IMG/VR virus record: IMGVR_UViG_3300004463_000077
Coordinates: 1 to 38,541 of that record
Length of the DNA: 38,541 nt
Reading direction: 5' to 3' (one strand)
Source of the DNA: a virus
In this document: one piece after another, positions 6,901 through 10,013 of the stretch
Layout: every line of letters starts with the position of its first letter
Position numbering within the stretch: the first letter of the stretch is position 1
The notes under the pieces: model-generated
The model's database searches: none
What the model saw: the letters and a program-made list of their open reading frames with translations, nothing else
What the model was told of the DNA's origin: nothing
Program-made: the position numbers and the translations under genes

Positions 6901-7074
6901 TCAATCCTCAGTAAGACAGGCAGGAATACGATAGATAAATTTCTTGTCTTCCTCGCAGAGATTAAGTGCAATATGTCCGGTGCAAATAATACTGCCGTTT
7001 GTATTGTGACCATGTTTACATTTATTGCTTACCAGTCCGCTGCACGGACGTTCTACAAAGTCTTGCTTTTTCAT
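6901..7074 (-). CDS. small Cys-rich hypothetical protein (57 aa), first gene of leftward cassette
   Basis: I choose ATG 7074-7072 because AGGAGAGG lies seven bases upstream; a longer in-frame start at 7134 lacks a site. The sequence has four Cys and two His in RPCSGLVSNKCKHGHNTNGSIICTGHIALNLC, suggesting a small zinc-binding fold. It is the first gene after the divergent promoter region, so it should be the earliest translated leftward product. Confidence 0.6.
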   Translation of the reverse strand: MKKQDFVERPCSGLVSNKCKHGHNTNGSIICTGHIALNLCEEDKKFIYRIPACLTED

Positions 7075-7105: not shown

Positions 7106-7134
7106 ATTCTCGCACGTCTTGTTGTGGAAAGCAA
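7106..7134 (-). promoter_or_regulatory. candidate leftward sigma70-type promoter
   Basis: On the minus strand TTGCTT (7134-7129) and GAGAAT (7111-7106) are separated by 17 bases. Transcription would start near 7099, leaving a 25-base leader with the AGGAGAGG site before ATG 7074. The position is right for the whole leftward cassette, but the -10 match is only moderate. Confidence 0.35.
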
Positions 7135-7222
7135 GGGGGATTACTAAAAGAATTTAGATTTGGTTAGGTTGATTTGGAATAGGGATTATTTTGGTGTAGG
7201 AGTTGAAAGAGTAAAATAGTTC

Positions 7223-7251
7223 TTTACAGGAATCTAAAAGCATGTTATATT
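7223..7251 (+). promoter_or_regulatory. candidate rightward sigma70-type promoter
   Basis: TTTACA (7223-7228), a 17-base spacer, and TATATT (7246-7251). Both hexamers are close to the host housekeeping consensus. Transcription would run rightward into the structured non-coding region starting near 7330. Confidence 0.5.
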
Positions 7252-7301
7252 GTTATTAGGAGGGATAGATTTTTATTAGTGAATTTATTTTCTTCAAATG
7301 C

Positions 7302-7329
7302 TTGTAATCTGAGTATTTTCGTGTATACT
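7302..7329 (+). promoter_or_regulatory. second candidate rightward promoter
   Basis: TTGTAA (7302-7307), a 16-base spacer, and TATACT (7324-7329). A start near 7336 would place the 5' end right at the structured region; the 7331-7336 arm described below would then be partly outside the transcript. The upstream promoter at 7223-7251 avoids that conflict. Confidence 0.4.
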
Positions 7330-7330
7330 T

Positions 7331-7670
7331 GATCTATCAATAATCTTCTAACGGCAACGACATTAGATTATAGCGTCTACGGCGAATCAGTAGATCGGTT
7401 TATGTTGGGGTGATAACTGCAACGAGCGACATAGACTTAAAGCGAACTAGGGAGCTATTCCATCGCAAACACCAGTCGGAAGAAAGGGGTGTTTATAGCA
7501 GCGCTTAAGAGCGTCTAAAAGCCTTTCAATCAGGGTAATCTTAACAAACCCCTGATCTGGCATAAGCTGACCTACCAGACTTATGTTCTATCTTGTCTCA
7601 ATCGGAATGCCTTCGGGTATGTAGGATTGATGAGGGAGGAAGACCAGAATAGACCGAACCTTTCCTCTTA
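7331..7670 (+). ncRNA. candidate large structured RNA (no ORF)
   Basis: No convincing gene lies between 7075 and 7784. From 7331 to 7670 the sequence is dense in complementary segments. GATCTA 7331-7336 pairs with TAGATC 7391-7396 and encloses ATAATCT/AGATTAT (7340-7346/7365-7371). GTCTA 7375-7379 with TAGAC 7432-7436 crosses that stem. Further stems are AAACACC/GGTGTTT (7467-7473/7488-7494), ATCAGGG/CCCTGAT (7529-7535/7550-7556), TCAATC/GATTGA (7598-7603/7625-7630) around a UUCG-capped ATGCC/GGTAT stem, and GAGGAA/TTCCTC (7636-7641/7662-7667). I recognise no known RNA class. By-eye pairing can overstate structure. Confidence 0.4.
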
Positions 7671-7784
7671 GGCACAATTTTGTGTATGGGGATTGGTTAG
7701 GGGTAATCTATTCTGAATCTTCTGAACTCATCGGAATGATTATATAAATATAGTAAAAATAAGATAAATATTAAAAGATAAGAA

Positions 7785-8012
7785 ATGAAGATGCCAATCT
7801 CTACTCAATACGAAATACAAGAATCAAGATCTGATTTTTACAAAGAGATAAAATGGTTAGCATCAAAGCACGGAGTTAAAGAATCTCAGATTGAGATAGA
7901 TCCTTCACATCCTACAGGAGAAATTTGTATTTTTATTAAAGGTGTTTGGTATGGCTATATTGATGTTGAGTTCTACAAGATGATGGATGGTTTAGAGAGT
8001 ATTTGGGATTAA
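7785..8012 (+). CDS. hypothetical protein (75 aa)
   Basis: Encodes MKMPISTQYEIQESRSDFYKEIKWLASKHGVKESQIEIDPSHPTG... A helix is followed by beta strands with aromatic residues (GEICIFIKGVWYGYIDVEFYK), like a small ferredoxin-like domain. The ribosome binding site is weak (AAAAGATAAGAA before the ATG), and the second ATG two codons later is an alternative. It is first in the rightward direction after the structured RNA. Family unknown. Confidence 0.5.
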   Translation: MKMPISTQYEIQESRSDFYKEIKWLASKHGVKESQIEIDPSHPTGEICIFIKGVWYGYIDVEFYKMMDGLESIWD

Positions 8013-8034
8013 TCATATTTATTTTATAAAACTA

Positions 8035-8319: not shown

Positions 8320-8320
8320 G

Positions 8321-8482
8321 GCTTGTCTAGGAATGATTTAACTGGGCAAGCTAATTTAAAGATTTATCGGCAGCGCAACTGTCGTTAAAAACAAGCGACA
8401 GTAAGACTTCTACAGCAAGTCCCTCTTTGTAGGGTTTGTTGCATTGTCCCTGTTGCGACATTGGGTGACTTGACTATAGAGG
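8321..8482 (+). ncRNA. structured leader RNA that can mask the endonuclease ribosome binding site
   Basis: Helices seen: GCTTGTC/GGCAAGC (8321-8327/8345-8351, one G-U); ACTGTCG/CGACAGT (8378-8384/8396-8402); and a long stem pairing 8409-8421 (TCTACAGCAAGTC) with 8467-8480 (GACTTG, one bulge, CTATAGA with one mismatch), which encloses TGTTGC/GCGACA (8437-8442/8455-8460). The 3' arm of the long stem covers part of the AGAGG ribosome binding site at 8478-8482. Part of the first helix may lie upstream of the transcription start. Translation control of homing endonucleases by site-masking hairpins is known in T4. Confidence 0.45.
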
Positions 8483-8488
8483 TTTTAA

Positions 8489-9025
8489 ATGCAACAAGAA
8501 ATTTGGAAAGATGTTGTTGGCTTTGAAGAACTATTTAAAATTAGTAATTTTGGAAATTTCTATTCTAAAAGAACAGACCGGCAGTTGGTGAAAACCGTAG
8601 GTCGTACTGGTTATTATGAGGTGGCAACCAAGATTGGTGGTAGAAAAGGAAAGAATTACTGTTTTAAGGTGCATAGGCTGGTTGCAGAAGCTTTTCTTGA
8701 AACTCCTTCGGAAGAACTAATTAAGGCTGCTTCTCTAACTAAATACAATAAAGTTCTGGTAAACCATAAAGATTGCAATAAGCTAAATAATTCACCTGAA
8801 AATCTTGAATGGTCAACTTACCTTGATAATTCAAAACATGCAGTTGAAAATGGACTTATCTTTCAGAAATCTGGTTTAGATTGTGGAAGATACTCTTTGA
8901 GTCAAGATCAAGTAGAGTTTGTGAAAAATAACTATGTACCATATTGTAGAGATTTTGGACAAAGGGCTTTATCTATAAAACTTAAAGTAAGTAGATCAGC
9001 TATTAAAATTGCTCTAAACATTTAA
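8489..9025 (+). CDS. NUMOD4/HNH_3 homing endonuclease
   Basis: A 178-residue protein in the usual order for this group: NUMOD4 motif (EIWKDVVGFEELFKISNFG, residues 4-22), an HNH_3 nuclease (VHRLVAEAF 61-69; VNHKDCNKLNNSPENLEW 91-108, with the catalytic-type His and Asn), and a C-terminal helix-turn-helix-like segment (about 135-175, RALSIKLKVSRSAIKIAL) for DNA recognition. The start is ATG 8489 with AGAGG. It is free-standing, next to the putative small terminase, and flanked on both sides by structured RNA, which raises the question of a cryptic intron. Confidence 0.88.
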   Translation: MQQEIWKDVVGFEELFKISNFGNFYSKRTDRQLVKTVGRTGYYEVATKIGGRKGKNYCFKVHRLVAEAFLETPSEELIKAASLTKYNKVLVNHKDCNKLNNSPENLEWSTYLDNSKHAVENGLIFQKSGLDCGRYSLSQDQVEFVKNNYVPYCRDFGQRALSIKLKVSRSAIKIALNI

Positions 9026-9033
9026 AGTTTCAC

Positions 9034-9237
9034 CACACCACGAAGATCAAATCCTAGAAAGGTGTGTTTCTCCCGCTGGTTCATCTCTCCTTCCAGCACT
9101 TAAAGATTAGGGTTTCTCCTCCCCGAAGTCTTTACCCATTAGTAGGTTCCTCTCCTAATCTATTAGTGGGCTTTCTAAATAATCTTGTTGTTCTCTAACG
9201 ATATTGCCAGTTGAGCTGGTCAGGATTATTTAGAAAG
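9034..9237 (+). ncRNA. structured RNA upstream of putative small terminase
   Basis: In the gap between the endonuclease stop and the next ATG I see stems in series: CACACC/GGTGTG (9034-9039/9061-9066), GCTGG/CCAGC (9075-9079/9093-9097), AGATTAGG/CCTAATCT (9104-9111/9154-9161), and a perfect 14-bp stem CTTTCTAAATAATC/GATTATTTAGAAAG (9171-9184/9224-9237) with an inner CCAG/CTGG hairpin. The stems do not cross. No U-run follows the last, so it is not a standard terminator. It could be a leader of the next gene, the 3' part of an intron-like element, or a packaging site. Confidence 0.45.
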
Positions 9238-9266
9238 AATTCAAAAGTTTATATGAAGGTAATATC

Positions 9267-9677
9267 ATGGCTAAGACTCCAAAGAATTCCAACCCATCGC
9301 CCGAAACTAGATTTGACGGCCCACGTTCAAACCGGAACACCTCTGGTAACAGTAAGGTTCGTATCAAGAAGAGTAAGCTACGTGAACTGGCTGACAAGCT
9401 CCTTGAACGGCAAGACATTGCCTTGGCTTTGATTGATAAAAGTTTGAAGAGTGAAGAAGTTAATCCAGATGCTGTGGCGAGTGCAAAGTGGATTATTACT
9501 TCTATCAACTCCGTTGTGAAGAGTGCATCTGCTGAAGAGCTTGGTAGCTTCAATGCTCGCCTCAAAGGTAAGCGTGATGATGAGGAACCTGAACAAACTC
9601 CTGCTGAAATCAGTAAAGAATTGAAACCTCGTCTGAGTTTGGTCTACGTTGATCCAGATGAACAAGATGACGACTAA
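9267..9677 (+). CDS. terS: putative terminase small subunit
   Basis: A 136-residue protein. The N-terminal basic, Gly/Asn-rich tail (NPSPETRFDGPRSNRNTSG) resembles that of DUF5681-type small-terminase-like proteins. It is followed by a helical region (KLRELADKLLERQDIALALIDKSL...AKWIITSINSVVKSA) and an acidic C-terminus ending DPDEQDDD. Small terminase recognises phage DNA and presents it to the large subunit. The assignment rests mainly on position and layout; no diagnostic residue is seen. The start is ATG 9267 with GAAGG upstream. It is unusually far (about 4.8 kb) from terL, with fibre genes and an endonuclease between. Confidence 0.45.
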   Translation: MAKTPKNSNPSPETRFDGPRSNRNTSGNSKVRIKKSKLRELADKLLERQDIALALIDKSLKSEEVNPDAVASAKWIITSINSVVKSASAEELGSFNARLKGKRDDEEPEQTPAEISKELKPRLSLVYVDPDEQDDD

Positions 9678-9700
9678 TTATACTTGTAGTTATAATTAGT
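9673..9700. other. 10-bp AT-rich inverted repeat at end of putative terS
   Basis: ACTAATTATA (9673-9682) and TATAATTAGT (9691-9700) are exact reverse complements with an eight-base loop, and the stop codon at 9675-9677 lies in the left arm. It is too AT-rich and lacks a U-run for a good terminator. It may protect the transcript end or be a protein site. Confidence 0.3.
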
Positions 9701-9733
9701 TATAAAAGAATTTATCTGAGAAGATTGCGAGAA

Positions 9734-9970
9734 AGTGGTCGTCCTTGTTAGCTCAAGCAGATAAAATTATTTACCACGTGAGTGGTTAAATGCACTAGAT
9801 CGCAAGGTCTGGTATCGGACGCCTAGTCCAAACCCGTGGTTCTGGCGGACCACTGCTGTAAATGCTGGTAGGTAAGCTACTAAGCGGAGAGGAAGTCATT
9901 CTGGACTTCACGGCTGAATGCAGGTAAGCGTGGCATCAGTCAATTATTTATAATCTACAGATTAAGTCTG
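9734..9970 (+). ncRNA. candidate structured RNA with two GNRA tetraloops
   Basis: The 338 bases between 9677 and 10016 hold no credible gene. AGTGGTC 9734-9740 pairs with GACCACT 9848-9854, extended inward by three pairs past a bulge. The closed region contains CTTG/CAAG (9744-9757), a bulged ATTTA-CCAC/GTGG-TAAAT hairpin with GTGA loop (9769-9791), an eight-pair hairpin with GCAA loop (9794-9813), and GGAC/GTCC (9817-9829). Downstream are hairpins GAAGTC/GACTTC (about 9892-9909) and TCTACAGA/TCTGTAGA (about 9955-9975). Two GNRA loops on short regular stems inside one long-range helix are characteristic of folded RNA. No known class recognised. Confidence 0.45.
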
Positions 9971-9983
9971 TAGACGTAACAAG

Positions 9984-10013
9984 CATTCCAAACAACAAAT
10001 ATTAAAAGGAATG
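9984..10013 (+). promoter_or_regulatory. hairpin masking the ribosome binding site of gene 10016
   Basis: CATTCC (9984-9989) pairs exactly with GGAATG (10008-10013) across an A-rich 18-base loop. The GGA of the ribosome binding site lies in the 3' arm, three bases before ATG 10016. A comparable arrangement precedes the gene at 10939. Confidence 0.45.

Follow-up and report, generated by a model that had tools for sequence, protein, structure and literature searches.

The window analysed here, a phage contig from IMG/VR with a length of 38541 bases, very probably carries at 7331-7740 a structured phage RNA that is read rightward from a divergent gene junction and is a divergent member of a widespread family outside Rfam. 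From 5' to 3', the RNA comprises the helices P0 and P1, a pseudoknotted core (P3, P4, Px, P5 and P6), the hairpins P7 and P8, the first copy of a direct repeat (R1), the 3' domain P9 with a receptor-like motif, and the second copy of the repeat (R2).

Limits and fold of the RNA in the window

Between the leftward genes, which start at 7134, and the rightward gene, which runs from 7785, is a divergent gap whose plus strand contains no credible gene (7135-7784). The original prediction had noted about 340 bases without a credible gene here, which is borne out, and had placed a structured RNA at 7331-7670, which was right in kind and wrong in its limits. The fold of 7331-7670 is hardly better than that of dinucleotide shuffles (z -1.34), because the end at 7670 cuts helix P9 (7646-7653/7707-7714). 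The shuffle control proposed for that interval thus came out against it, with 6 of 100 shuffles folding equally well, whereas none of 100 did so once the interval was extended to 7745 (z -4.05). On the minus strand, the fold of 7331-7670 does not exceed chance (z +1.47). The ends given for the whole plus-strand RNA, 7331-7740, are approximate; its 3' part is matched by a covariance model of the family 3' domain (model R1).

Two promoters had been predicted upstream of the RNA, and a consensus scan of the plus strand does find two sigma-70-like sites: TTTACA-17-TATATT with a TG before the -10 box at 7223-7251 (10/12), and the nearer TTGTAA-16-TATACT at 7302-7329 (9/12). Most family members inspected have a TTGACN-like promoter at the position of the nearer site. 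The 5' hairpin region P0 (7331-7396, plus strand) has an outer helix GAUCUA/UAGAUC (7331-7336/7391-7396) and an inner helix AUAAUCU/AGAUUAU (7340-7346/7365-7371), and is followed by the linker UCGG; in the freshwater relatives, a 5' hairpin is likewise followed by (A)UCGG. The outer helix, present as the sequence match reported earlier, is uncertain as a closing helix because its first strand (7331-7336) immediately follows the nearer promoter's -10 box and would be transcribed only from the upstream promoter.

P1 follows at 7397-7437 on the plus strand, between the linkers UCGG and UAAA, and joins GGUUUAUGUUG (7397-7407) to CGACAUAGACU (7427-7437) in 11 pairs, a length reached by 4 of 5000 shuffles. 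In six relatives, the same place is taken by a helix of 6-8 pairs with a different sequence, and its position between the two linkers is also kept. The earlier proposal of a crossing helix GTCTA/TAGAC (7375-7379/7432-7436) is correct as a match of letters, but as a helix it is not supported, since its 3' strand lies within P1 and would compete with this conserved helix. A genuine chain of crossing helices lies slightly further 3', where P3, P4 and P5 span 7442-7527.

In this core, all on the plus strand, P3 pairs GCGA (7442-7445) with UCGC (7463-7466), assigned from the sequence at the position of the family P3. The pseudoknot P4 joins GCUAU in the P3 loop (7454-7458) to AUAGC (7495-7499), Px pairs AAACACC (7467-7473) with GGUGUUU (7488-7494), and P5 joins GAAAGG in the Px loop (7482-7487) to CCUUUC (7522-7527), crossing both Px and P4. 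The P6 hairpin CGCU-UAAG-AGCG (7502-7513) takes the place of the family P6. The minimum-energy fold then gives the hairpins P7 (AUCAGGG/CCCUGAU, 7529-7556) and P8 (CAUAAG/CUUAUG, 7561-7585).

The remaining plus-strand features form the 3' part of the RNA. R1, identified by the repeat rule of the family, reads CUCA-AUCGGAAUG (7597-7609) and is contained in a UUCG-capped hairpin (7597-7634), whose presence confirms an earlier observation (UGCCUUCGGGUA at 7608-7619). P9 (7646-7714) pairs AGAAUAGA (7646-7653) with UCUAUUCU (7707-7714), encloses inner helices, and lies within the model R1 match. It holds a motif composed of UCUUAGGC (7666-7673), a hairpin and GUAUGG (7684-7689), which occupies conserved or invariant columns of the family 3' alignment and which we take to resemble the 11-nt tetraloop receptor. 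R2, CUC-AUCGGAAUG (7727-7738), also falls within the model R1 match.

Protein coding was considered and rejected for the family. A conserved GGAGANAUG resembles a start site, but the frames behind it vary among members and meet early stops, and no reading frame is conserved family-wide.

Three further noncoding stretches were observed downstream in the window. The stretch at 9026-9268 forms conserved serial hairpins with pyrimidine loops of the CUCUCC type (fold z -5.43), has homologues in six relatives (L008, L006, L005, L002, L007 and L011), and is possibly a second noncoding RNA. A strongly folded noncoding stretch at 9690-9985 (z -3.96) shares short conserved pieces with L005, L008, L002 and L004, in several of which the counterparts lie near tRNA-Met genes. 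A folded leader at 8320-8488 (z -4.08) stands directly upstream of a NUMOD4/HNH gene (8489-9025), and its 3' part recurs in L006 at 7890-8013, upstream of a different ORF.

Distribution and covariation of the family

Direct blastn of the window against phages gave short unrelated matches only. Loci sharing its tail-fibre gene or terminase were collected as relatives, and the family was reached through freshwater relatives. L004, L005 and L088 have a conserved RNA in the equivalent divergent gap. From the 5' part of L088 the trail passed to Otagovirus phages, and Psxphi15 led on to 179 phage records, most of them from Pseudomonas phages, with PAK_P1 and PaP1 among them. Many further members came from pattern scans of viral contigs; in a prokaryote-wide scan with the motif pattern, the matches listed were apparently unrelated. 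Altogether the family ranges over Otagovirus, Pakpunavirus, Flaumdravirus and freshwater phages, with an RNA length of roughly 300-400 nt. Two copies per genome were found in Psxphi15, KIL1, M5.1, PPSC2, PAK_P1, XD2, Amme-3 and several contigs. In many complete Pseudomonas phages there are two copies, and each of them follows a sigma-70-like promoter where divergent genes meet; for instance, one copy lies beside RNA ligase and the other beside ClpP or PhoH ahead of the tRNA cluster.

Covariation was assessed in two alignments of 35 distinct members each, with the window excluded, and is strong in both domains, as the original prediction of an RNA had called for. In the 3' domain, 97.9% of cells are paired, with 121 compensatory cells against 36 in shuffles, and pairing drops to 31-46% when the structure is slid along the alignment. 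In the 5' domain, 94.1% of cells are paired over 29 pairs, 24 of which are compensatory, with 210 compensatory cells compared with 66 in shuffles. These pairs include the crossing helices P3/P4, P4/P5 and Px/P5, and compensatory pairs account for 5 of 5 in P4, 3 of 3 in Px and 6 of 6 in P5. There is thus strong evidence that the family RNA contains a chain of pseudoknots, in the helix order P3, P4, P3', Px, P5, Px', P4', P6, P5'.

When compared with Rfam by cmscan, including GOLLD and ROOL, neither the window RNA nor the members in other phages gave a match at gathering score; up to E 10 the window produced only weak and implausible matches, and up to E 3 the relative L005 produced none. No published description was found in Rfam 15 or in open-access papers, and the family is apparently undescribed.

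The original prediction had also offered a degenerate group I catalytic core, a reading that extends to other known ribozymes and that we regard as extremely improbable. It could draw on the crossing helices and on the NUMOD4/HNH homing-type gene 0.8 kb downstream. However, the suggested search with cmscan, including RF00028, gave no group I match in the window up to E 10, the helix order is wrong, the strand proposed for P7 belongs to P1, and no interrupted gene was recognised. The absence is informative, since with the same library genuine group I introns were detected in two relatives, where they lie downstream of the RNA locus (L007 12702-12928 and L088 10390-10608).

The window as a divergent family member

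Model R1, trained on 35 other phage loci with the window excluded, matches the window at 7617-7739 with 45.1 bits and a rough E-value of 4.4e-9, and has no other credible match in the 38.5 kb. This independent match, together with the family covariation, supports the option of an unknown phage RNA left by the original prediction. The model also matches L002, L010, L108 and L383/L389, and by blastn the 3' part of the window matches L088 with E 2e-10. Both hallmarks of the 3' part are present: the P9 signature UCUURGGC-hairpin-GUAUGG, and the repeat ATCGGAATG at 7601 and 7730, with a spacing of 129, flanking the 3' domain after CUC(A).

Model R2, built for the 5' domain, has no significant match in the window (best E 0.38), and the family 5' motifs GAGANAUGUC and CACUCACC were not matched there. 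The window counts, as do L002 and L389, as a divergent subtype. The helix order (P1, P3 crossed by P4, Px crossed by P5, and P6) was matched by eye, running from the 5' hairpin through UCGG, P1, the linker UUAAA, P3 with P4 in its loop, and Px with P5 to P6 and P5'. Only 2 of 400 mono-shuffles admit the whole helix set, so the match of the core is good, although as evidence it is post hoc.

The RNA is not universal in the phage group of the window, since no model match was obtained in its close relatives L006, L007, L011, L083 and L371-L374. In two of these, the noncoding stretches examined (L083 1840-2500 and L006 5440-5760) are quite different DNA, and the stretch of L083 holds repeats of the type 'CCTATAC..GGATAAAATG'.

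The direct repeat flanking the 3' domain

The 3' domain is flanked on both sides by a sequence X, preceded each time by CUC(A); X is identical at its two positions in an RNA and differs between RNAs. The two copies, R1 and R2, share 7-12 identical nt within each RNA, and their sequence differs even between the two RNA copies of one genome. For instance, X is ATTAGGAT in L004, ATCTGCATG in PAK_P1, ATTCTGGATAG in copy A and AGTGTCATGAGA in copy B of M5.1, AGTTGAAA in L002, AGTTAGAA in L389 and ATCGGAATG in the window. Among 44 RNAs with 19 distinct 8-mers, an RNA's own R1 and R2 agree at 7.95 of 8 positions compared with 3.77 between RNAs, the within-RNA figure being inflated by the repeat match of at least 7 nt that was required in the set of 40; none of 10000 permutations reached the observed agreement. 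Two complete members fall below this 7-nt filter, L229 with one mismatch and L108 without the repeat. Close relatives show parallel changes in both copies (L096/L116, L111/L127/L157, L107/L126 and L002/L389). By eye, the family member at L378 2379-2760 has a 16-nt direct repeat, CCAGCCTAATTGAATT, without the usual CUCA.

To our knowledge, two short sequences forced to match each other without a partner have no precedent in known RNA families. Since X is arbitrary yet must match, we tentatively infer recognition by base pairing. A switch between R1 and R2 would need a complementary third segment, and this candidate was rejected: no consistent one was found in the leader, and a search that covered 250 nt upstream and 1.5 kb downstream gave none, with controls equal, so that nothing within reach exceeds chance. 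The genomes of M5.1, PPSC2 and Psxphi15 contain no exact antisense copy of their longest X, and complements of the window X with up to 2 mismatches occur at chance level.

Possible roles of the repeat

The reading that we prefer, although only tentatively, is that R1 RNA pairs with the template DNA of R2 to form an R-loop, by analogy with the ColE1 primer RNA. It is preferred because it alone explains an X that is free but matching. The template strand of the RNA's own gene would be the only strand surely complementary to both copies. In such a scheme, the nascent RNA would pair through its R1 loop with the template at R2 just behind the polymerase, and the pairing would hold the transcript there as an R-loop; by construction, R2 RNA with the template DNA of R1 would be an alternative geometry. 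Such an R-loop could serve as a primer for phage replication, in the manner of ColE1 RNA II, or mark the head of the operon. That a self-homology R-loop indeed starts replication, with two origins in the Pseudomonas phages, or anchors the transcript is a somewhat more speculative proposal.

Pairing with the RNA's own template is favoured by the lack of a complementary third site in cis and of an exact antisense in the phage genomes tested, and by the different X of two paralogues in one genome. The cumulative GC skew reaches minima close to or at the RNA copies of Psxphi15, PAK_P1 and M5.1, and near 7000 in the window, as it would at origins; gene orientation flips at these minima, so the skew alone proves nothing about origins. 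For PaP1, a putative origin was placed elsewhere by its authors by means of GC skew (PMC3652863). Two further points speak against the R-loop: the RNA-DNA hybrid would be short, and in some members R2 adjoins a ribosome-binding site, which would suit a leader RNA.

A cis-acting leader of the rightward operon is indeed possible, if short of probable. The RNA would then control elongation or translation of the first genes, either by antitermination like the HK022 put RNA or by translational control at R2, with one protein binding at both R1 and R2. All annotated copies are preceded by a promoter-like site and followed by the first rightward gene. Several members (L111, L120 and L113) have a ribosome-binding site and start codon directly after R2, and where a genome has two copies they stand at the head of two operons, like put sites. 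However, a binding site for a protein should be conserved in sequence, whereas X is free between RNAs and differs between a genome's copies, which fits base pairing better than one protein. In addition, L157, L162 and L172 have a new TTGACA-type promoter-like site right behind R2, so that in these three the RNA is probably a transcript complete in itself and not only a leader.

The RNA could also act in trans, a role that we consider rather unlikely. The R1 loop and the R2 tail would be two identical antisense seeds against a host transcript, or the RNA would be a decoy for a host factor. Short seed-like segments behind a conserved CUCA would suit this role, and a variable sequence would be expected if targets differ. 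A fixed target should nevertheless hold the sequence, whereas the P. syringae phages L096 and L116, with related hosts, change both copies together; the missing exact complement likewise counts against targets within the tested phage genomes.

It is very unlikely that the repeats act at the DNA level, as the target-site duplication of a small mobile element or as cores of site-specific recombination, with the 3' domain as the mobile unit. Identical, otherwise arbitrary short direct repeats around a compact hairpin domain of ~100 bp do have this appearance. On the other hand, no member lacks the 3' domain, which covaries strongly as RNA, the repeats keep changing jointly long after any insertion, and no empty site was seen.

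Comparison with known systems

GOLLD, ROOL and OLE are RNA classes of several hundred nt that are highly folded, contain no ORF and often lie beside phage tRNA genes. The present family shares their size, heavy folding and lack of an ORF but has no Rfam match, and we know of no rule R1=R2 in these classes. The put elements are simple hairpins of ~65 nt. Like HK022 put, the family RNA lies directly behind early-type promoters in two copies per genome, but it differs in its length of ~300-400 nt, its pseudoknotted core and its repeat rule. With group I introns (RF00028) it has in common the crossing helices and the homing-type endonuclease genes nearby; a split gene was not recognised.

In ColE1 RNA II, the sequence of an upstream RNA segment occurs again where the hybrid later forms, which lets the RNA pair with the template DNA. 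The likeness to this system lies in the promoter and the long structured transcript, while R1=R2 is only formally the same feature; the family belongs to phages rather than plasmids, its repeat is not G-rich, and no antisense RNA I was recognised. RNA II forms a persistent hybrid at the origin and is cleaved by RNase H (PMC4555960). Among noncoding RNAs of Pseudomonas phages, sRNA1 and sRNA2 of PAK_P3 are expressed late in infection from intergenic or tRNA regions (PMC4933390); at ~100 nt they are much shorter than the family RNA, and no link between them and this leader family was found.

Significance for phage biology

Roughly 180 sequenced phages carry the RNA. Among them are PAK_P1, PaP1, JG004 and phiPsa374, phages of P. 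aeruginosa and P. syringae that are in wide use, and in the phages inspected the RNA is unannotated or split into spurious small ORFs. If R1 does pair with the template of R2, evolution would here show two copies of a sequence drifting together without an antisense partner. With the family RNA as a defined target, it can be asked how replication is initiated in these phages or how their first operons are regulated.
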